DNA of 64,000 bases from Pseudomonas parafulva (GTDB lineage: Bacteria; Pseudomonadota; Gammaproteobacteria; Pseudomonadales; Pseudomonadaceae). Positions 32,602-42,989 of this stretch are shown here, one piece after another. A program made the translations under genes and the position numbers. Under the pieces are notes generated by a model, which was not told the origin of the DNA, did no database searches, and saw only the letters and a program-made list of their open reading frames with translations. The stretch lies in contig NZ_CP009747.1 of the NCBI RefSeq assembly GCF_000800255.1, positions 2,790,001 through 2,854,000 of the forward strand, in the 5' to 3' direction. How positions within the stretch are numbered: position 1 is the first letter of the stretch; each line of letters starts with the position of its first letter.

Positions 32602-34353
32602 ATGACCGTCACCGAACAGCTCAGTGCCTTGAGCGCCATCCTGGCTCAACGCAGTATCCACAGCCTGTTCCAGCCGATCATCTGCCTCTCGGAGCGACGC
32701 GTGCTCGGCTATGAGGCGCTCAGTCGCGGCCCGTCCAACAGCCCGCTGCACTCGCCCCTGAATCTATTCGCCATCGCCCGCCAGGCCGGGCGCCTGAGCG
32801 AGCTGGAGGTGTTGTGCCGGAAGAACGCCTGCCGCCGGTTCAGCGAGCTGGGCCTGGAAGGCAAGCTGTTTCTGAACGTCTCTCCCGAATCGCTGCTCGA
32901 ACCGCATCACCCCTCCGGGCGCACCTTGGAAATGCTCGAACAGGTTGGCCTGCATCCGAGCCAAGTGGTGATCGAGCTGACCGAGCAAACGCCCACTGAA
33001 GACTTCCAATTGCTGTTCAACGCCCTGCACCACTATCGCGACATGGGCTTTTCCATCGCCTTGGACGACCTGGGCGCTGGCTATTCCAGCCTGCGTCTGT
33101 GGTCGGAATTACGACCGGACTACGTGAAGATCGATCGTCACTTCATCGATGGCATCCACCAGGACCCGCTCAAGCGCGAGTTCGTCGGCTCCATTCTGCA
33201 GATTGCCCGGGCGTCGCGCGCCCAGGTGATCGCCGAGGGCATCGAGTTGGCAGAAGAGCTGACGGTACTCGCCGAAATGGGCGTCGATCTGCTGCAAGGT
33301 TACCTGCTGGGCCGTCCACAGGAATTTCCTCCTCGCGATGCGCAGGGCCTGTTGCCGCAACGTCAGCAAGACGCGCTGGTGGTAGGTGAGGAAAGCACCG
33401 ACCTGGTGGCATTGCTGATCGCTCAGCCCGCTGTGGCCCTCGATACACCGACCCAACAGGTGCTTGAAGCCTTCCGCCGCCAGGCCAACCTCAACTCCCT
33501 GGCAGTGCTGGATGCTCACGGTCAGCCACGCGGGATCGTGCACCGTCACTCGCTGGCCGATGTACTGCTCAAGCCTTTCGCGACCGACTTGTTCGCGCGC
33601 AAGCCGATCAGCCGGCTGATGAGCGAGGACTTCCTCGCCGTCGAGCGCAGCCAATCGTTGCAACAGGTCAGTCGCCTGCTGACCAGCCGCGCCCGCCAGC
33701 GCATCGAAGAAGACTTCATCATTACCCAGGGCGGTCGGTATCAGGGCCTGGGCCGGGTCATCGATGTGCTCAAGTTGATCACTGAACAGAAAATCCAGCA
33801 GGCGCGTTATGCCAATCCACTCACCCTGCTACCGGGCAACGTGCCGATCCAGCAGTGCCTTGCACGCTTGCTGGAGCAACAACGAGCGGCGGCGGTGTGC
33901 TACGTGGACATCGACAGCTTCAAGCCCTTCAACGACATCTATGGCTACGCACGCGGAGATGAGGTGCTGTTGTGCCTGGCACAGTGCCTGAGCGACTGCG
34001 TCGACCCAAATCAGGATTTCGTCGGCCACATTGGCGGCGACGATTTCATGCTGGTGCTCGGCACCCCTGATTGGCGCCCCCGCCTGGAGCACCTGATCGA
34101 GCGTTTTCTAGGCGAATGCAAGCGCTTCTACCGCAATGAGCATCTGCAGGCGGGCTGCTTCATCGCCCATAACCGCCAGGGGCAACGTGAGACCTTCGCC
34201 TTGCTGTCGCTGTCGATCGGCGTGGTGTGGCTGCGCCCGGAGTGTTGCGAGGGGCTGGATGCGGCGCAACTGGCCGACCTGGCTTCTCAGGCCAAGCGGC
34301 AAGCCAAGGATACGGCTGGCCCCAGTCTCAGCTTGATCGACACCGGCAGATAG
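32602..34353 (+). CDS. EAL-CBS-GGDEF domain protein (c-di-GMP turnover)
   Basis: A 583-residue soluble protein. The EAL domain at about 10-245 keeps the phosphodiesterase residues: YEALSRG, FLNVSPES, VIELTEQ, ALDDLGAGYSS, YVKIDR, IAEGIE and LLQGYLLGRP. A CBS pair is at about 270-395. The GGDEF domain at about 410-575 has the active-site variant GGDDF and no RxxD inhibitory site just before it. So it is most likely a c-di-GMP phosphodiesterase whose degenerate cyclase and CBS domains sense nucleotides. From memory, an ortholog also follows algO in P. aeruginosa. It stands alone between terminators. Confidence 0.9.
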   Translation: MTVTEQLSALSAILAQRSIHSLFQPIICLSERRVLGYEALSRGPSNSPLHSPLNLFAIARQAGRLSELEVLCRKNACRRFSELGLEGKLFLNVSPESLLEPHHPSGRTLEMLEQVGLHPSQVVIELTEQTPTEDFQLLFNALHHYRDMGFSIALDDLGAGYSSLRLWSELRPDYVKIDRHFIDGIHQDPLKREFVGSILQIARASRAQVIAEGIELAEELTVLAEMGVDLLQGYLLGRPQEFPPRDAQGLLPQRQQDALVVGEESTDLVALLIAQPAVALDTPTQQVLEAFRRQANLNSLAVLDAHGQPRGIVHRHSLADVLLKPFATDLFARKPISRLMSEDFLAVERSQSLQQVSRLLTSRARQRIEEDFIITQGGRYQGLGRVIDVLKLITEQKIQQARYANPLTLLPGNVPIQQCLARLLEQQRAAAVCYVDIDSFKPFNDIYGYARGDEVLLCLAQCLSDCVDPNQDFVGHIGGDDFMLVLGTPDWRPRLEHLIERFLGECKRFYRNEHLQAGCFIAHNRQGQRETFALLSLSIGVVWLRPECCEGLDAAQLADLASQAKRQAKDTAGPSLSLIDTGR

Positions 34354-34371
34354 TAGCGGTCCGCAGGACGA

Positions 34372-34755
34372 TCAATCCCGCTGCGTGGCGGTTGTTTCGG
34401 GATAGCTGAACTCGAACACTCGCACCACTTCAGACGCATGCCAGGACGCGGCTTCCATGCCGTCGACCGGTCCGGAAAACCGTCCCAGGCGCTCTACACA
34501 TTCGAAGAAACCGGTGCGCGGTAGGCGACTGGCCCCCTGACTGATGACCAACGAGCTGCGCAGCGGTTGCTCGGCACGAGCATCGAGCAGCGCCAGGTAC
34601 TCAAGCGCGGCGGTCAGGGTCTGCATGGCTGGGCTGGGCAACTGCAAGCGTTCGAGCAGCGCCCGGTAGGTGAGCAGGTGACGTTGTCGTCGGGCCAGGT
34701 CGAGCTCGGCCAGCAGGTTCTGCCACTGCTGGCGGCTGATCCTGACCTGACTCAT
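34372..34755 (-). CDS. Hypothetical protein, partner of the HTH gene
   Basis: A 127-residue protein with no motif I recognise. The N-terminal half is helical and rich in Leu/Arg/Gln (VRISRQQWQNLLAELDLARR); the C-terminal half has SSLVISQGASRLPRTGFFEC and a Trp/Glu/Phe-containing beta-like end. Its ATG overlaps the stop of the upstream HTH gene (ATGA), so the two are translationally coupled and probably act together. It could be a toxin-like or effector partner, but there is no direct sign of an activity. It converges with the EAL-GGDEF gene, with 18 bp between. Confidence 0.7.
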   Translation of the reverse strand: MSQVRISRQQWQNLLAELDLARRQRHLLTYRALLERLQLPSPAMQTLTAALEYLALLDARAEQPLRSSLVISQGASRLPRTGFFECVERLGRFSGPVDGMEAASWHASEVVRVFEFSYPETTATQRD

Positions 34756-35105
34756 GACGGCTCGCTCCAGCCAGCGATGCCCAGGTGCCAGGCCAGGCTG
34801 CGCTGAATCGCCGCGTCCGGCACGCGCTCACCCGATTCGATCATGGCCAGATAAGACGGACTGATACCGACACTGCGCGCCAGTTGTTCAGGCGCAAGGT
34901 CCTTGGCCTGACGCAACTGCGCCAGCTCACCCAGGCTGGGCAGGCTGGCGCTTTGCGCGGTATCAGGAGGTGGGCAGGCTGCACGGGCGGGCTCATCGGC
35001 TGCAATGGGGGCCTGGCCAGCCGCCTCGCGCAGCGCTTGATAGTCAGCCCAGGGAATGACCGCATACTCGGGCTGACCGTCTCGACTGATGACCTGAATA
35101 CCCAT
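34752..35105 (-). CDS. XRE-type HTH protein with a Phd-like N-terminus
   Basis: A 117-residue protein. Residues 1-28 (MGIQVISRDGQPEYAVIPWA followed by DYQALREA) resemble the start of Phd/YefM-type antitoxins. After an Ala/Pro-rich linker, residues 55-110 form a Cro/C1 HTH (LAQLRQAKDLAPEQLARSVG, ISPSYLAMIESGERVPD). The region before the gene has a perfect dyad GGCATAA-CCC-TTATGCC next to a TTGACA box, suggesting autoregulation. The layout of a small DNA-binding protein plus a coupled partner is toxin-antitoxin-like, but the pair appears to be conserved in the core genome. Confidence 0.75.
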   Translation of the reverse strand: MGIQVISRDGQPEYAVIPWADYQALREAAGQAPIAADEPARAACPPPDTAQSASLPSLGELAQLRQAKDLAPEQLARSVGISPSYLAMIESGERVPDAAIQRSLAWHLGIAGWSEPS

Positions 35106-35132
35106 ACAACCCCCTTAGGCATGTAATTGCTC

Positions 35133-35159
35133 GGCATAACCCTTATGCCAATCTGTCAA
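35133..35159 (-). promoter_or_regulatory. Operator dyad and -35 box for the HTH gene
   Basis: The perfect inverted repeat GGCATAA-CCC-TTATGCC (35133-35149) is 28 bp upstream of the HTH start. On the minus strand it is preceded by TTGACA (35154-35159), so a bound regulator would cover the promoter spacer. The -10 is not clear. A further half site GGCAT is at 35118-35122. Confidence 0.55.
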
Positions 35160-35201
35160 TTATATGACCTAAGCGCTGAGATCTGTGCATTTCGCACCGA
35201 T

Positions 35202-35642
35202 TCAGTTGCGCGTACGCTCCAGGCGCAGCGCTTCAGGGGTATCAGGCAGGCGCTCGACCACACGCAGACGCTCAGGCGACTGGCTGTCGCGCCAGGCCTT
35301 GAAGCGGGCGAGTTCATCGGCCACCGTCTTCATCACCCAGCCCAGCACGGCGATGTCATCGAGAAACCCCACCCCCACGATCCAATCGGGAATCGCATCC
35401 AGCGGGCTGACGAAATACAGCAGGCCAGCGACGATGGTCACCAGTGCCTTGGGGCTCACCGCACGGTACTCGCCCCGCCACCACGCCAGACACAGCCCTT
35501 GCATCAGCCGCAGATCCTCGCGCAAATGGCCCAGCTTCGGCCCTTTGCGCGCCACGGCAAACAACAATGCGGGCAGACGGCCGCGGCTGAGCAGGCGCTC
35601 GGCCAGTGGCATGAACCGGGCGAAATTCCAAGGTGCGCGCAT
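35202..35642 (-). CDS. YkvA/DUF1232 family membrane protein
   Basis: A 146-residue protein with the DUF1232 signature LLYFVSPLDAIPDWIVGVGF and LDDIAVLGWVMKTVADELAR, embedded in one or two membrane helices. The N-terminal part is basic (WNFARFMPLAERLLSRGR). The family is widespread; its function is unknown. A remarkable inverted pair of DnaA boxes lies 24-54 bp upstream of its start. Confidence 0.85.
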   Translation of the reverse strand: MRAPWNFARFMPLAERLLSRGRLPALLFAVARKGPKLGHLREDLRLMQGLCLAWWRGEYRAVSPKALVTIVAGLLYFVSPLDAIPDWIVGVGFLDDIAVLGWVMKTVADELARFKAWRDSQSPERLRVVERLPDTPEALRLERTRN

Positions 35643-35665
35643 GAAGCCTCCAATGCTGGGGCAGA

Positions 35666-35696
35666 AAGGTTATCCACATTTATTGTGGATAACCTT
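35666..35696. promoter_or_regulatory. Inverted pair of perfect DnaA boxes
   Basis: TTATCCACA (35670-35678) and TGTGGATAA (35684-35692) are perfect DnaA boxes on opposite strands, 5 bp apart. They sit inside a perfect 13-bp inverted repeat (AAGGTTATCCACA and complement). Weaker boxes follow: TGTGAACAG at 35696-35704 (two mismatches on the minus strand) and TTTTACACA at 35764-35772 (one mismatch). The cluster is just upstream of the YkvA-like gene. It could be a DnaA-controlled promoter or a DnaA-titrating or reactivating site. Confidence 0.7.
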
Positions 35697-35875
35697 GTGA
35701 ACAGGGCGCCTCTCAAGCGCGTCGCACGCCCACGGGGCAAGGGTCGCGCTTGGATCGGGCGTTTTTTACACAACTGTTTCAGGTGAGTGGCGTTTTCACG
35801 TCAGCCTGCCATGGCAAGGCACATGCTAGCTCAGACAGTGTCTCCGCCAGGGTGTTCGCTTCGGGCAGGCGCCGA

Positions 35876-35906
35876 AAACGAAGACGCCCCGTCGAAACGG
35901 GGCGTC
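35876..35906 (-). terminator. Intrinsic terminator of the FKBP gene
   Basis: GACGCCCCGT-CGAA-ACGGGGCGTC, a perfect 10-bp stem. On the minus strand it is followed by TTCGTTTT, 20 bp after the FKBP stop. Confidence 0.85.
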
Positions 35907-35926
35907 CACAGACAACCGGTGCCAGT

Positions 35927-36670
35927 TTACTTGGCAGGTGCCTCGGCCGGTGCAGCCGGCTCGGCGTCGAGTTTGCTCGGGTCCTTGATACCCAGCAGTT
36001 CGAGGTCGAAGACCAGTACCGAGTTCGCCGGGATCAGCGGGCTTGGGCTCTGCGCGCCGTAGGCCAGGTCAGCCGGAATGTACAGCTTGTACTTCTCACC
36101 GACATGCATCAGTTGCAGGCCTTCGACCCAGCCAGGAATGACGCCGCTGACCGGCAGATCGATAGGGCTGCCACGCTCGACGGAGCTGTCGAAGACCTTG
36201 CCGTCGATCAGCTTGCCTTCGTAATGGACGGTGACCACATCGGTCGGCTTGGGTTGAGGGCCATCGGCCTTCTTGATCACTTCGTACTGCAAGCCCGAGG
36301 CGGTGGTGACCACGCCTGGCTTCTTGGCGTTTTCCTCGAGGAACTTCTTGCCATTGGCAACCGCTTCCTCGCTGGCCTTGGCCAGGCGATCTTCAGCGCG
36401 CTTCTGCAGGGCAGTGAAGGCTTCGACCAGTTCTTCGTCCTTCAGGCGAGGGTCTTTCTTGGCAACCGCATCTTCGATACCCAGGGCCACGGCTTTGGAG
36501 TCCAGGTCATCCATGCCTTCCTGCGCCAGGCTCTTGCCCATGTTCAGGCCGATGCCGTAAGAGGCTTTCTGCGCTGGGGTCTTCAGCTCGACGTTGCTGG
36601 TCTGAGCGTCGCAGCCAGCCAGGACCAGGCCTACCAGGGCAACCGCAGCCGCCAAACGATGCTGTTTCAT
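35927..36670 (-). CDS. FKBP-type peptidyl-prolyl isomerase, lipoprotein
   Basis: A 247-residue protein starting MKQHRLAAAVALVGLVLAGC; LAGC is a lipobox, so Cys20 should be lipidated. An FKBP_N dimerisation domain (ASYGIGLNMGKSLAQEG to about 125) is joined by a long helix to the FKBP catalytic domain, with VVTVHYEGKLIDGKVFDSS, IPGWVEGLQLM and IPADLAYG. This is the Mip/FkpA/FklB layout of periplasmic folding helpers. The C-terminus is an Ala/Pro/Glu-rich tail. The longer open frame to 36877 is not used, as it would hide the lipoprotein signal. Confidence 0.92.
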   Translation of the reverse strand: MKQHRLAAAVALVGLVLAGCDAQTSNVELKTPAQKASYGIGLNMGKSLAQEGMDDLDSKAVALGIEDAVAKKDPRLKDEELVEAFTALQKRAEDRLAKASEEAVANGKKFLEENAKKPGVVTTASGLQYEVIKKADGPQPKPTDVVTVHYEGKLIDGKVFDSSVERGSPIDLPVSGVIPGWVEGLQLMHVGEKYKLYIPADLAYGAQSPSPLIPANSVLVFDLELLGIKDPSKLDAEPAAPAEAPAK

Positions 36671-36848
36671 GCTATTTCCTTGTTCATGCGCCATAAGGGC
36701 AATCGGGGTAAAGGCCGCGAGCTTAGCAGGCGGCCATGACCAATGGCTACCGGCATAGGAGCGGGTTTGCGGCGGGAAGTTCCTGGATGTCAGGATCTTC
36801 ATCTGCATCGGCCAGATGCAGCCTCGAGCAGGTTGGGAAACCCACGCT

Positions 36849-37781
36849 TCAGGGATAGCGACCCTCGCGATACTCACCCGCTACTTCACGCAACGCTTCA
36901 CATAGTGATTGCGCCAGCGAGCTCTGCGTCATGGCGGCGTTGCGGCAGATACCCACCGAGCCGCCCGGTTCGCGCAGGCCCAGGTCGAGCTCCACCAGTT
37001 CGCCACGGCGCAGATCGATCAGTACCGCATCGCGCGGCGCCACCCAGACCGCATCGCTGCCCAGCACGTAGCGCCGGCTCAAGGCCAGCGACAGGGTTTC
37101 CAGACGCTGCGGCGGCAGATCGATGGCGCACTGCACGAACAGGCTGTCGGCATGCTGGCGGATCGTCGTGCCGGTGGGCGGCAGCACCAGCGGACAATTG
37201 CCCACCCCTGCCCTGTCCAGCATCTGGCGCGCCAGCAAGGGGTGGCCGGGACGCACCACCAGGCTCATAGACTCGCTGTACAGGTGCTCGAACGACAGCC
37301 CCTGGATCTGCGGGCTGTCCGTCATGCGCCCCACCACCAGTTCCAGTTCGCCCAAGTGCAATTGCCCCAGCAACTGAGCACTGGCACCGGTGACCACATC
37401 AATCACCAGCGCCTCGTGTCGCCGGTGCAGACGGCACAACACCTCCGGCATCAACAACCCCTCGACCGTCGACAGCACGCCGATGCGCAACCGAGAGGGC
37501 ATGCGTGCCTGGCCACGGACGCTGCCGATGCCTTCGCGCAGCGCTTGCACACTCGGCCCGGCGTGACGCATGAAGCGTACCCCGGCCGCTGTCAGTTCCA
37601 CACCCTGGCGATTGCGCTCGAACAGTCGGGCCTCGAGCAGATCCTCGAGCTCCTTGAGGGTCTTGGACGTCGCCGGCTGACTGATCGCCAGCACATCGGC
37701 AGCACGGGCCAGGCTGCCCTGGCGGGCGATTTCGAGGAAGCACAGCAGGTGACGATATTTGATGCGGGTATCGAGGTTCAT
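36849..37781 (-). CDS. LysR family transcriptional regulator (PcaQ/GbpR-like)
   Basis: A 310-residue regulator starting MNLDTRIKYRHLLCFLEIAR. The winged HTH has GSLARAADVLAISQPATSKT and LEDLLEARLFERNRQGVELT; the effector domain begins at about 95 with LRIGVLSTVEGLLMPEVL. The N-terminus and effector domain look closest to the PcaQ/GbpR group that controls aromatic or sugar catabolism, but no such genes are adjacent. The divergent neighbour is the type VI chaperone gene. Confidence 0.82.
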   Translation of the reverse strand: MNLDTRIKYRHLLCFLEIARQGSLARAADVLAISQPATSKTLKELEDLLEARLFERNRQGVELTAAGVRFMRHAGPSVQALREGIGSVRGQARMPSRLRIGVLSTVEGLLMPEVLCRLHRRHEALVIDVVTGASAQLLGQLHLGELELVVGRMTDSPQIQGLSFEHLYSESMSLVVRPGHPLLARQMLDRAGVGNCPLVLPPTGTTIRQHADSLFVQCAIDLPPQRLETLSLALSRRYVLGSDAVWVAPRDAVLIDLRRGELVELDLGLREPGGSVGICRNAAMTQSSLAQSLCEALREVAGEYREGRYP

Positions 37782-37921
37782 GCACGGCAGTTTAACCACG
37801 CGGTGCTCGGCTGCAAGCTACTGCCCGCGCTCATCGATCCGATCGCATTTTCGGACACTTCGACTTGCTGCGACGGGGGTAGCTTTGTAGGGTGCTGTTT
37901 CCATTGGCAAGGAGCCCGGCA

Positions 37922-38347
37922 ATGCCTGTCTATCACACCCAGGATCTGCACCTCGAACTGGGCGAGGAGCCGCTGCAGGACACCAGCATGAACATGCTGA
38001 GTTTCCCTGAGCGCGGTACCAGCCTGGTGATCGCCCGTAATCCGCTGCCCGCCGATCAGGCCTTCGAAAGCGTCTACCGCCAGCAACTCGAACAACTGCG
38101 CAGCCAGCTCGCGGCGGTCGTCGGTGAACCTGAGGCCATCCACTGCGGACACGCGCAAAGCCTCAAGGCCTTGGAAACACGTGTGCAGTTCCAGCGCGGC
38201 GAAATCCGTTCGTACCAGTATCAACTGGCCTATGCCCACCCGCAGGCGCCACGCCTGATGGTAGTGAGCTACAGCAAGCAGAGCCCATTGAACGACGCCG
38301 ACCTTGCCCACTGGCAGGCCATCAAGGCCAGCCTTCACGCAGTCTGA
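37922..38347 (+). CDS. Eag-type (DUF1795/DcrB-like) type VI effector chaperone
   Basis: A 141-residue protein starting MPVYHTQDLHLELGEEPLQD, then TSMNMLSFPERGTSLVIARN and ending ADLAHWQAIKASLHAV. DUF1795 proteins upstream of PAAR-Rhs genes are Eag chaperones. They bind and shield the effector's N-terminal transmembrane helices until loading on VgrG. The rhs gene starts 28 bp downstream with two predicted membrane segments, the expected client. No vgrG or type VI structural gene is in the window, so this is an orphan cargo module. Confidence 0.85.
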   Translation: MPVYHTQDLHLELGEEPLQDTSMNMLSFPERGTSLVIARNPLPADQAFESVYRQQLEQLRSQLAAVVGEPEAIHCGHAQSLKALETRVQFQRGEIRSYQYQLAYAHPQAPRLMVVSYSKQSPLNDADLAHWQAIKASLHAV

Positions 38348-38375
38348 CAGCGCCACCGAGCAAGGAAGCCAGCCC

Positions 38376-41300
38376 ATGCAGCAGGACCTGCACGCTGTCC
38401 GCAAGGACGACCGGATACTGCATCCCCCCCTGATGGCAGAGCTCACCAGCGCCCTGACCGAGGCGGTGGTCTATGCGGCGGCCACTGCGGCGGTGGGTGC
38501 GGCGCTCGGCGCTGCCGTCGCAGCCACCGTCGGCACCGGCGGCGCAGCCGCAGCCCTGGTGCCGGTCGCCGCCGGCCTGTTGGTCGCGGCGGCCAGCTCA
38601 CTGCCAGGCGGCGGCGACAAGAGCATCGGCGAGCACATCGGCGAGTTCAGCGACTGGGTCGGCAACTCCCTGTTCCCGCCGGAGCCCTACGGCAAGATCC
38701 TCACCGGTTCGAGCGACGTCTTCATAAACGGCGTACCGGCCGCCCGCGCTGCGGGTTTCAGCCTGGGCAACGATGCTGCGCCCGCCGCCGACGAGCCACC
38801 GTCGATCCTGGAAAACGTCGGCAGCTACGCCATGGTGGGCGCCGCCATGATGCTGCCGATCATCGGCATTGCGCAGGACATCGCCAGTATCTTCAACCCG
38901 CCGATTACCACCCCCGCCGATCCCGGCACCCAGTCACTGGGCGAGGATACCGTCGAGTGCAGCAAGCACCCCGGCGAGCAGTTCCTCGCCCAAGGCTCGG
39001 ACAAGGTTTTCATCAATGGCCAACCGGCCGTACGCGTCGGCGACAAGACCACCTGCGATGGCCCCGCAGGCATGACCTTCTCGCCCAACGTGCGCATCGG
39101 CGGCGGTACCCTGACCGTGCGCGACATTCGCGACGGCAAGAGCGCGGCGGCGAAGATCGTCGGCATCGTCGCCGGCATGCTTCTGTCGCGCCGCGGCGGC
39201 AAGGCCCGACCACGACCGCGCAAGGCACCCCGACCGCGCTCCAACATCATCAAGTGCGTGGGCCACCCGGTCATCGTTTCCAGCGGCGCCAAACTGCTCG
39301 ACGGCCCTGACGACCTGGACTTCACGCTGCCCGGCCTGATCCCCATCGAATGGTCGCGTCGCTACGACAGCAACGACCGGCGCGCCGACGGCCTGTTCGG
39401 CTTGGGTTGGAGCCTGCCCTACGAGGTGCGCCTGGAACGCGTGGCCCATCCCGAAGGCGGCGAATTGTGGATCTACATCGACGAAGAAGGCACGCGCATT
39501 GAATTGGGGCGCCTGCAGCCAGGCAGCGCCTTGGTCAGCAGCCTCGACGGCCTTGCATTCTTCCACCAGGACCATGGCATCACCGTGGTCGAGGATATCT
39601 ACAGCGGCCAGTACCAAGTGCTGCGCACCGACCCGCTGAACCCAAATCGCTCGCGCCTCGTGCAACTGGGCGACCGTAATCTCAATCGCCTCGACCTGCT
39701 CTACGATGACCAGGGTCGCCTGCAATACCTGGCCGATCGCGTCGGGCGCACCGTCGTCGAGCTACTCTACGACACGGCTCATCCGCGCCGCGTCAGCCAG
39801 GCGCAGCGATTGTTCCTGCTCCAAGGCACTGAGTTCGCCGTAGAACACCGAGAGGTCCTGGCCAGCTATGCCTACACCCCGTCTGGTCAACTCAGCGAGG
39901 TGCGCGAAGCCGAAGGTCAAGTGCTGCGCCGCTTCAGCTACGATGCCGAAGGCCTCATGACCCGGCATACCCTGACCAGCGGCGCGAGCTTCCATTATCA
40001 ATGGTCGCGCTTCGCCTCCCAGCCAAGACAGGCCCCGGACCTGCCGCCACTGCTTGAGCCACAACCGGACCACGAGTGGCGCGTGGTCCACCACTGGAGC
40101 GATGACGGCGAGGCGTATCGCTTCGACTATGACCTGTCTCTGGGGCACACCACCGTCACCGACAGCCTCGGTCGGCGTGAGCATTTCGAATGGGGACCCT
40201 CGCACGAGGTGCTGGTCTACGTGGATGCCTTGGGCCAGCGCTGGCAGGAAGAAATCGTCCAGGGGCAGTTGGTGGCCAGCATCGACCCACAAGGTCACGC
40301 CTGGCGCTACCGCTACGACGCCCTCGGACGCCTGGTGGAGAGCCGTGACCCACTAGGGCGCTGCGAGCGCCTGAGCTACACCGAGCACTGGGCGCTGCCT
40401 ACGCAGATCAGCGACGCTGCCGGACGCATCCATCGCCACGCTTACGACGCCCACGGCAATCTACTCAGCAGTACCGATCCGCTGGGCTGCATCACCCGCT
40501 ACACCTATGATCGTCGGGGTCGGCTGACGTGCATCACCGATGCACTGGACAAGACACGTCAGTTGCATTGGAACGATCGTGGGCAGTTGCTCCGCTACAC
40601 CGACTGTTCGAAACACACCACGATCTGGCGCTACGACCCACGCGGCTATCTGAGCGAAGTGATCAACGCCCTCAACCAGCGCACCTGTTATCGCTTCGAC
40701 GCCCGTGGTCATTTACTGGAAAGGACTCGCGCAGATGGTCGTACCGACCACTACAAAGTCAATCTCAGCGGCCAACTCACGCATCATGCCGACCCAGCCG
40801 GACACCTCACCCAATGGCACTACGACGCTCGCGGCCGACTCAGTCAACGCATCGACGCCATGGGTCTGACCCTGCGCCTGCACTGGGATGCCTACGACCG
40901 CCTGCAGCGCCTGGAGAACGAGAACGGCGAGCATTACGAGATGCACTGGGATGCGCTGGACCGCCTGCTCGCCCAGCGCAACCTCGATGGCGGAGGTCAC
41001 AGCTATGGTTACGACGCCGTCGGCAATGTCATCGAGACCCGACTGCATCCGGCCCGTGACGCCGAGCCGACGTTGCCGGGCAGCGCCCCGGAACCTGCGG
41101 CAGCGATTCAGGTACAACGCTTCGAGTACGATGCCGTCGAGCGTCTGCGATGCAAACACACTGACGACGGCATCACTGAGTACAGCCACGACGCTGCCGA
41201 CAACCTGTTGTCAATTAGCTTCACCAATCGCGAGGGCGATCAACAGTCACTCGCGTTCAGCCACGACGCCCTCGGCCAACTGCTCAGCGAAACCACGCAA

Positions 41301-42989
41301 GCTGGTCGACTTGCCTACACCCATGACGCCCTGGGCAACTTGCAAACTTTGACCCTGCCCGATGGCCGCCGCCTCAACCACCTGTATTACGGCAGCGGCC
41401 ATCTGCATCAACTCAACCTCGACGGCCGGGTGATCTGCGACTTCGAGCGCGACGCGCTGCACGCCGAAGTGCTCCGCACCCAAGGCCGAATTCACACTCA
41501 GACCCGCCATGACAGCACCGGGCGCCCTAGGGAAAAGGCCATACACGTCTTAGGCGCCGGCCCCGGCAGCGTGGCGCTGCTGAGCAAGCACTACCACTAC
41601 GATGTCAGCGACAACCTGATCGAAGAAAATTTCGTTCAGTGCCAGGCCGCCCGCCCAGGTGAGTCGCCTGCCCAAGCTCGGACCATCGGCCGACTGCTTG
41701 GCACTGGCAGTCCAGGCAACATGTTGCGCGGCCAGGCCCACTACGATTACGGCCCAACCGAGCGCCTGCATGGCGCGCGACGTATCCTGCCCGATCATGA
41801 GCAGGTCGAGCACTACGCCTACGACAGGGCCGGCAACCTGCTCGATACGCGCTCGGCTACAGGCCCGATACGGCATAACCGGCTCAAAGTGCATGAGGAC
41901 AAGCGCTACCGCTACGACCGCTTCGGCCGCCTCAGCGAAAAACGCACTGGCCGTCACCTGATCCAGCGCTTCGACTACGACGCCGAACAGCGCTTGATTC
42001 GCGTGCACCAGCAGCGCGGCAACGTGGACGAACGCGTTGAGTTCGACTACGACCCCATCGGTCGGCGCACGGCCAAGCGCCTGTATCGCAACGATCAGCC
42101 CGAACCGGTCAGCCAGACCCAGTTCCTCTGGCAAGGCCTGCGCCTGTTGCAGGAGGTGCAGGACGGCAAGCCCAGCCTGTATGTCTACGCCGACACCGAC
42201 AGCTACGAACCCCTCGCCCGCCTCGATGGTGCGCCCGGAGAGGAACGCCTGCACTACTTCCACACCAACCTGGCAGGACTGCCCGAACAGCTCACCGACG
42301 AAAACGGCGTGACGGTGTGGCAAGGCGAGTTCGAGAGTTGGGGCCGTTGTCGAGAAGAATGGCTGGAAAGGGGACAGAATCGTCAGCAGAACCTGCGTTT
42401 CCAGGGACAGTATCTGGACCGCGAGACCGGGCTGCACTACAACACGTTCAGGTTCTATGATCCGGCGGTGGGGCGGTTTACGCAGCAAGATCCTATCAGT
42501 CTCCTTGGTGGCGTGAATCTATATAACTATGGTGTGAATAGCATCTCGCGAATAGATCCACTTGGACTGAGCGGATTCGATCCCTTTGAGTACGGAGAAA
42601 TAACGGATTTTCCGGAGGATTTACACTTTGGACAGAATAGAGCAGCGCCGCAATTTAGTACTATCGGCGCACAGGTTCCGGAATTGGCAGGACGGCCAGT
42701 GCTAGAAGTGGCAGATGATCTAAAAAGTGGCAAGCTTTCGCCTGACAAACTACTGATCGCTTACACTAAAGATCCAGTTAGTGGAAAATTTGTCACTCTC
42801 AATAACAGAGGCCTTGCTGCCATTGTGAAATCACAAAAATTCCCCAAACATGGAATATTTGTTCCTTATCAACACGCACCACCACAGCTCACCAAGGACT
42901 TTAAAAATAAGACACCTTCTAGATCTATAAACTTAACTCGCAACAAAGATGGTTCAGGATTCGTCACTCACATATCACCTTGCCCGTAA
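38376..42989 (+). CDS. prePAAR/PAAR-Rhs polymorphic toxin, type VI secretion effector
   Basis: 1537 residues, ATG at 38376 with AAGGA 9 nt upstream. In order: a prePAAR motif (AVRKDDRILH, residues 7-16); a long Ala/Gly hydrophobic segment (about 30-75); a second one (about 146-172); PAAR sequence (about 110-125 and 195-255, with SSDVFINGVPAARAAG and GSDKVFINGQPAVRVGDKTT); then Rhs/YD repeats to about 1370 and the core end RFYDPAVGRFTQQDP with DPLGL at 1394-1398. The Rhs shell encloses and releases the 139-residue tip (1399-1537). The tip is basic, AT-rich in DNA and unrecognised; it contains FVTLNNRGLAAIV, faintly like ParB/sulfiredoxin-type toxin tips. The core is GC-rich; the tip is clearly of other origin. 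Confidence 0.9.
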   Translation: MQQDLHAVRKDDRILHPPLMAELTSALTEAVVYAAATAAVGAALGAAVAATVGTGGAAAALVPVAAGLLVAAASSLPGGGDKSIGEHIGEFSDWVGNSLFPPEPYGKILTGSSDVFINGVPAARAAGFSLGNDAAPAADEPPSILENVGSYAMVGAAMMLPIIGIAQDIASIFNPPITTPADPGTQSLGEDTVECSKHPGEQFLAQGSDKVFINGQPAVRVGDKTTCDGPAGMTFSPNVRIGGGTLTVRDIRDGKSAAAKIVGIVAGMLLSRRGGKARPRPRKAPRPRSNIIKCVGHPVIVSSGAKLLDGPDDLDFTLPGLIPIEWSRRYDSNDRRADGLFGLGWSLPYEVRLERVAHPEGGELWIYIDEEGTRIELGRLQPGSALVSSLDGLAFFHQDHGITVVEDIYSGQYQVLRTDPLNPNRSRLVQLGDRNLNRLDLLYDDQGRLQYLADRVGRTVVELLYDTAHPRRVSQAQRLFLLQGTEFAVEHREVLASYAYTPSGQLSEVREAEGQVLRRFSYDAEGLMTRHTLTSGASFHYQWSRFASQPRQAPDLPPLLEPQPDHEWRVVHHWSDDGEAYRFDYDLSLGHTTVTDSLGRREHFEWGPSHEVLVYVDALGQRWQEEIVQGQLVASIDPQGHAWRYRYDALGRLVESRDPLGRCERLSYTEHWALPTQISDAAGRIHRHAYDAHGNLLSSTDPLGCITRYTYDRRGRLTCITDALDKTRQLHWNDRGQLLRYTDCSKHTTIWRYDPRGYLSEVINALNQRTCYRFDARGHLLERTRADGRTDHYKVNLSGQLTHHADPAGHLTQWHYDARGRLSQRIDAMGLTLRLHWDAYDRLQRLENENGEHYEMHWDALDRLLAQRNLDGGGHSYGYDAVGNVIETRLHPARDAEPTLPGSAPEPAAAIQVQRFEYDAVERLRCKHTDDGITEYSHDAADNLLSISFTNREGDQQSLAFSHDALGQLLSETTQAGRLAYTHDALGNLQTLTLPDGRRLNHLYYGSGHLHQLNLDGRVICDFERDALHAEVLRTQGRIHTQTRHDSTGRPREKAIHVLGAGPGSVALLSKHYHYDVSDNLIEENFVQCQAARPGESPAQARTIGRLLGTGSPGNMLRGQAHYDYGPTERLHGARRILPDHEQVEHYAYDRAGNLLDTRSATGPIRHNRLKVHEDKRYRYDRFGRLSEKRTGRHLIQRFDYDAEQRLIRVHQQRGNVDERVEFDYDPIGRRTAKRLYRNDQPEPVSQTQFLWQGLRLLQEVQDGKPSLYVYADTDSYEPLARLDGAPGEERLHYFHTNLAGLPEQLTDENGVTVWQGEFESWGRCREEWLERGQNRQQNLRFQGQYLDRETGLHYNTFRFYDPAVGRFTQQDPISLLGGVNLYNYGVNSISRIDPLGLSGFDPFEYGEITDFPEDLHFGQNRAAPQFSTIGAQVPELAGRPVLEVADDLKSGKLSPDKLLIAYTKDPVSGKFVTLNNRGLAAIVKSQKFPKHGIFVPYQHAPPQLTKDFKNKTPSRSINLTRNKDGSGFVTHISPCP

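Follow-up and report, generated by a model that had tools for sequence, protein, structure and literature searches.

We propose that the intergenic element found upstream of ykvA in Pseudomonas parafulva is probably a DARS-type (DnaA-reactivating) element. The proposal rests on the arrangement of three DnaA boxes and on the conservation of this arrangement, both of which are read directly from the genome sequences. In the papers covered by searches on DARS or DnaA boxes with Pseudomonas, the recharging of the Pseudomonas replication initiator is not described. PMC10380432, as seen in an excerpt, says that DARS1/DARS2-like sequences are conserved in many proteobacteria; the reference cited there is presumably Fujimitsu 2009, so that a Pseudomonas entry in that work is possible.

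Anatomy of the element

The window, i.e. the whole 64-kb stretch of DNA that was analysed, contains a three-box core. Box I, a perfect TTATCCACA on the plus strand (35670..35678), is placed head to head with box II, a perfect TTATCCACA on the minus strand (35684..35692), across a spacer of 5 bp (35679..35683). The coordinates confirm the initial annotation, which had described two perfect, opposed boxes 5 bp apart in a 13-bp perfect inverted repeat; the repeat (35666-35678 / 35684-35696) encloses box I and box II. Box III, a weaker box on the minus strand (CTGTTCACA, read as TGTGAACAG on the plus strand; 35696..35704), follows after a 3-bp spacer, CCT (35693..35695). The layout is then I-N5-II-N3-III, with box I opposed to II and III, and III in line with II. 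TGTGAACAG and TTTTACACA had both been listed as further boxes nearby, and both are present, but TGTGAACAG is no loose extra: it shares the orientation of box II, at a distance of exactly 3 bp, and is a part of the core.

The two perfect TTATCCACA boxes are the only ones in the window, where 0.09 were expected and 0/100 shuffles reached two. Genome-wide, TTATNCACA occurs 96 times vs 19 for the reversed control, and the window pair is the sole head-to-head pair with a 5-bp spacer among these 96 boxes (pairs read by eye).

Beyond the core, the distal motif ATCGGGCGTTTTTT (35754..35767, plus strand) is located 54 bp past the TGTG of box III, compared with 53 bp in most relatives. The fourth box, TTTTACACA (35764..35772, plus strand), fits TTWTNCACA and overlaps a T-tract. 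In relatives an IHF-like site starts at +117 to +125 from box I; its counterpart here (35787..35808, plus strand, a range allowing one extra position for a 1-bp insertion in this genome) is degenerate, with at best 4/9 positions of the IHF consensus at the expected place. Between +36 and +329, counted from box I, the window copy gave no IHF-like site of at least 8/9.

The element is flanked by ykvA (DUF1232, Pfam PF06803; 35202..35642, minus strand), with 27 bases from the start codon to box I, and by a gene for an FKBP-type isomerase (35927..36670, minus strand), a terminator-like hairpin (35882-35907) being present between the FKBP gene and the element. Against NCBIfam, ykvA and its neighbours gave nothing above a cut-off, and no match to uvrB was found in the window. 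A GGGCG-TTTTTT sequence, flagged at 35746-35762, was considered as a terminator and rejected: no plus-strand gene was seen to end there, and the stem is lost in distant relatives (by eye). Two genes follow ykvA (window 34372-35105), one with an HTH domain and one that is small and has no match in Pfam; both were matched in 30/30 loci. On the other side, a long ORF of 1561 aa (window 38304-42989) has YD-rich repeats which, judged by eye, suggest an Rhs-repeat protein.

Conservation, second element and IHF-like site

The initial annotation had made its proposal depend on conservation in close relatives, and the boxes are conserved there, since the head-to-head pair at 5 bp (≤1 mismatch) was found in 297/298 genus genomes and its reversed control in 0/298. 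The only genome without the pair, G207, is also without a ykvA match and without the second element described below. The 161-bp region as a whole was matched in 33/57 genomes, own genome included.

Sequence variation was followed in a set of 71 loci: 65 came from genomes that their handles assign to three genera, and six from a named collection. Three of these six are titled Pseudomonas; L337, L344 and L364 were placed by their FKBP/ykvA context. L039 (another locus) and the duplicates L037, L038, L046, L048 and L058 were left out. Related loci and genomes are not independent in the counts given here and below. Box II is invariant (71/71 loci) and box III is TGTGAACAG in 59/71. Box I varies in its ninth base (A50 T10 C9 G2), the other columns being at 0.99-1.00. 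The I-II spacer is fixed in length and free in sequence, with 20 variants, and the II-III spacer is CCT in 59/71 loci. The distal motif is offset from the TGTG of box III by 53 bp in 66/71 loci and by 54 bp in 2/71, the other three being unmatched by the expression used.

At +117 to +125, an IHF-like site of at least 7/9 is present in 56/71 Pseudomonas loci (22 at 8-9/9 and 34 at 7/9). The 22/71 loci with a match of at least 8/9 compare with a mean of 1.2 and a maximum of 5 in 100 dinucleotide-shuffle runs. The fourth box is perfect in 13/71 loci, 11 of which are without the IHF-like site, i.e. in 11/15 loci without the site vs 2/56 with it. This association may correspond to one or few events, because the loci share ancestry.

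The FKBP gene, the site and ykvA occur together in 30/30 loci, and the same order is found in L254, L292 and L316, which are titled Pseudomonas. Some genus members (L224, L228, L234, L237) carry a further three-box core (TTATCCACGCA..CTGTGGATAACTCTGT), near which no YkvA, FKBP or HTH match was found in these four loci.

A second core, CAATCCACA-N5-TGTGGATAA-N3-GGTG, is located at G000:C1:2857964-2857993 (L065:2965), 32 kb from the first element and 4 kb beyond the window, upstream of rmuC (PF02646). Its pattern was found in 295/298 genus genomes, the misses being G154, G207 and G244, and the control gave none. In 32/32 loci examined it is accompanied by a 7-9/9 match to the IHF consensus within +117 to +125, placed at +120 in 31 of them; the match is 7/9 in 31/32 loci and 9/9 in one, and this genome's second site has a 7/9 match at +120. 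The stretch at +147 to +155 is not a clean control at this element because it holds a 9/9 match in 10/32 loci. In 31/32 loci, RmuC starts at a distance of 155-836 bp from this core. Of nine genomes compared, five have 19-32 kb between both elements, two have 177 and 196 kb, and the remaining two more than 2 Mb.

At the level of the order, the three-box core (≤3 mismatches) was found in 154/244 order genomes, corresponding to 78/112 genera, with 0/244 for the control; no UvrB, BioD, MutH, YkvA or FklB match lies beside these cores in the 30 loci L192-L221. The scan for DARS1-like cores gave at least 117 loci; the 80 titles shown include many Enterobacterales and Alteromonadales genera, some Pseudomonas and others. 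Among the matches listed, 74/117 have a UvrB match within 1.5 kb of the core. The non-Pseudomonas set comprised 111 loci among the matches listed, 109 with enough flank, and is not a random sample. In this set, 72/109 loci, among the matches listed, have an IHF match of at least 8/9 at +117 to +125, the dinucleotide-shuffle mean being 3.7 and the maximum 10 (100 runs). The stretch from +147 to +155 was taken as a control; there, 8/9 was reached by no locus of either set, and 7/9 was seen in 11 non-Pseudomonas and 0 Pseudomonas loci.

The spacing was also followed in a class-wide search of 369 genomes, using a pattern in which box II-N3-TGTG is separated from ATCAANNNNTTR by any 76-106 bases; a few of these genomes (such as G319 and G332) overlap the earlier scans. 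The pattern was found in 104 genomes of 92 genera, and its reversed control in none. Among the matches listed, the gap from core to IHF-like site is 88-94 bp in 119/126 (28.5 expected if uniform) and 90-92 in 105/126 (12.2 expected if uniform). The outlying gaps, among the matches listed, are three at 80, the spacing of E. coli DARS2, and two at 101-102, i.e. about one helical turn either way.

A profile built from 69 non-Pseudomonas cluster representatives (+30 to +145) was scored on 32 Pseudomonas representatives at 86 shifts. As a whole, it scored best at zero shift, with 2.3 vs at most -3.2 elsewhere. By block, only +78 to +105, which holds the distal motif, was best at zero shift; this was not the case for +60 to +78 (4.72 vs a maximum of 4.81), +105 to +145 with the IHF-like site (-5.17 vs -2.79) and +30 to +60 (-1.85 vs 9.57).

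At least 120 viral contigs (those listed being L072-L191) carry TTATCCACA-N5-TGTGGATAA. In 24 of the 120 listed, a TGTG box lies at exactly 3 bp, with at most 1 at any other offset from 0 to 11. Several of the 24 look like mutual near copies, and some other viral matches resemble repeated coding sequence. Phages may carry DARS-like sites.

Alternative readings

The initial annotation had offered a DARS- or datA-like element, or a DnaA-regulated promoter. The DARS-like reading fits best, with the DARS core geometry, the genus-wide conservation, and the distal half and IHF-like site at fixed spacing; the architecture, moreover, recurs beside other genes (uvrB, rmuC).

The promoter reading, in which DnaA bound to boxes I-III, i.e. 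27-62 bp upstream of the start codon, would turn ykvA on or off with the DnaA cycle, is an unlikely one. The element does stay with ykvA: the gene adjoins box I in 71/71 loci, always reading away from it, and in 70/71 loci the aligned ykvA start follows box I by 19-96 bp (one distance, -250, is a partial match). The constant company of FKBP gene, site and ykvA points the same way, and the linkage is unbroken even in the pair-less G207, which also has no ykvA match. E. coli DARS1 itself, in an excerpt of PMC5835720, sits in the uvrB promoter region. However, no sigma-70-like promoter was found in 35600-35960, in a search of the sigma-70 type only, and a simple operator needs no conserved part 90 bp past the core. 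The promoter reading also leaves unexplained the UvrB matches beside DARS1-like cores in 74/117 of the matches listed, uvrB being on the box III side in E. coli, and the RmuC start near the second site. It is the less likely one because the same architecture stands by uvrB and rmuC and because the distances within the element are near-fixed, unlike the distance to ykvA.

A plain high-affinity titration site, merely holding DnaA, is improbable. The boxes are perfect, and this genome has a high density of TTATCCACA near oriC, as a titration role would have it, but the spacings fixed across genera are unneeded for titration, and one site among 96 boxes contributes little.

The datA-like reading, whereby ATP-DnaA and IHF would assemble on the element and ATP would be hydrolysed, is very improbable. 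A double DnaA box plus an IHF site is the plan of datA too, according to excerpts of PMC5835720 and PMC11317965, and relatives have an IHF-like site at fixed spacing. Nevertheless, datA needs its IHF site between required boxes (PMC5835720, in excerpt) and the window copy is without an IHF-like site. Nor does this reading account for the invariant feature here, the head-to-head pair at 5 bp, which a part of PMC10380432 names as characteristic of DARS.

Least probable is a hairpin in the RNA ahead of ykvA, as an attenuator or as a structure of the 5' UTR. Inner and outer pairs are broken over the 71 loci (innermost pair in 19, pair 11 in 23, pair 12 in 14, pair 13 in 20), box III is unpaired in the hairpin yet conserved, and the Rfam scan of 34000-38000 gave no match. 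In favour of a hairpin, the minus strand folds well (z -4.47), and pairing is kept despite a base change in three loci, at pair 10 in one and at pair 12 in two.

Proposed activity and comparison with known systems

As a DARS-type element, the site would have the release of ADP from ADP-DnaA as its activity, which we infer from the likeness to E. coli. ADP-DnaA would occupy boxes I-III, with head-to-head contact between the AAA+ domains at boxes I and II, and ADP would be expelled; the apo-DnaA would then depart, bind ATP and be able to fire oriC. In relatives that have the IHF-like site, about 91 bp past box III, IHF would gate the reaction by bending the distal part back onto the core. These steps follow the E. 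coli DARS model as given in excerpts of PMC5742627, PMC10380432 and PMC4245941. The ykvA-side copy of this genome may work without IHF, because its IHF-like site is decayed and a perfect fourth box is present. DARS elements also have a stimulatory region that flanks the core, for which the conserved distal motif (68/71 loci) would be the candidate.

The genome encodes IHF alpha and a DnaA close to that of E. coli, with 191/244 identical residues in domain III and 74/94 in domain IV, and with R227, D269, R285, L290 and R334 kept. At the place aligned with Gln208 of E. coli DnaA, the DnaA of this genome has Ala, and this counts against strict identity with E. coli DARS. Gln208 is reportedly, in Sugiyama 2019, the head-to-head DnaA residue needed at DARS.

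The element lies between oriC and the terminus, at 0.60 along the replichore in this genome and at 0.42-0.64 in 13/15 genomes placed, the exceptions being G029 (0.05) and G014 (0.85). For this placing, dnaA was located in 15 genomes, and what we take to be the dif motif was matched in 10/15, half the chromosome length being used for the other five. With the presumed places of oriC and dif, E. coli DARS1 is at 0.66 and DARS2 at 0.41. The off-centre positions in G029 and G014 count against the DARS reading, as does the window copy being without an IHF-like site.

In this genome, a Hda-like gene (G000:C1:2876561-2877238) lies about 51 kb from the element; the distance is at most 50 kb in seven other genomes and 195-215 kb in G018 and G032, and the gene is far from the element in G003, G017 and G020. 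The TTATCCACA boxes crowd around dnaA (4.31 Mb), at G000:C1:4270000-4345000; a dense DnaA-box region near the origin of E. coli is comparable (PMC12371093, in excerpt). Other tight clusters of perfect boxes are found away from oriC, at G000:C1:3895692-3896624, 4952977-4954634 and 5077096-5077957, and the ORFs beside them match the ETF-alpha, GlcNAc 2-epimerase, short-chain dehydrogenase and UPF0029 families.

It is quite plausible that Gammaproteobacteria share an ancestral IHF-phased DARS, with a three-box core, an IHF site 90-92 bp past box III and varied gene neighbours. E. coli DARS1 would then be a decayed form, with a 7/9 IHF match in the same place, and DARS2 a form shorter by one helical turn. 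Pseudomonas would keep the ykvA and rmuC copies, and in the P. putida-like lineage the ykvA copy would have escaped from control by IHF and acquired a perfect fourth box, giving a pair of one constitutive and one gated site. For the recharging of the initiator in Pseudomonas, single deletions of the two genus-wide elements, of which only the rmuC copy has an IHF-like site in this genome, would be a direct test. A core-to-IHF spacing fixed class-wide would change the view of DARS1 as IHF-free, and would serve as a sequence rule in the search for DARS in other genomes, including those of phages. The parts of the DARS literature covered do not mention that the IHF site of DARS1-type loci stands at a constant distance.

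Among known systems, DARS-like sites are named in V. cholerae (PMC6090056, in excerpt). The plasmid-borne ColE1 DARS, known from a description in part of PMC5835720, has three DnaA boxes in about 70 bp. E. coli datA, in excerpts of PMC5835720 and PMC11317965, likewise has a double DnaA box with an IHF site, but it acts by ATP hydrolysis and not ADP release, and no head-to-head pair at 5 bp is named in these excerpts. The features common to DARS are the orientation and spacing of the boxes, head-to-head pairing being essential (PMC5742627 and PMC10380432, in excerpts).

In MG1655 (NC_000913), DARS1 reads TTATCCACT-N5-TGTGGATAA-N3-TGTGTATTA and the DARS2 core TTATTCACC-N5-TGTGGATAG-N3-TGTGAAGAA, so both have the same I-N5-II-N3-III spacings and orientations as the window. 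For both loci, PMC11317965, in excerpt, names double boxes that correspond to these box II-III pairs, and it gives the spacing of an E. coli double DnaA box as 2-3 bp. DARS2, upstream of mutH, is longer (455 bp) and has Fis sites. It requires phased IHF (PMC4245941, in excerpt). Its IHF-like site (8/9) is at +109 vs +120/121 in relatives, i.e. about one helical turn nearer the core, and a phased site of this type is absent from the window copy (best 4/9). DARS1 differs from the element in its box I, which ends in T, in the fourth box, which was not seen there, and in its flanks, with uvrB on the box III side, whereas the window has ykvA on the box I side, plus FKBP. IHF is dispensable in vivo at DARS1, according to an excerpt of PMC4245941. 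Like the element, DARS1 is intergenic (bioD-uvrB) and about 100 bp in size, and its distal block, ATTGGCG, aligns gap-free (by eye) with ATCGGGCG, 53 bp past the TGTG of box III.
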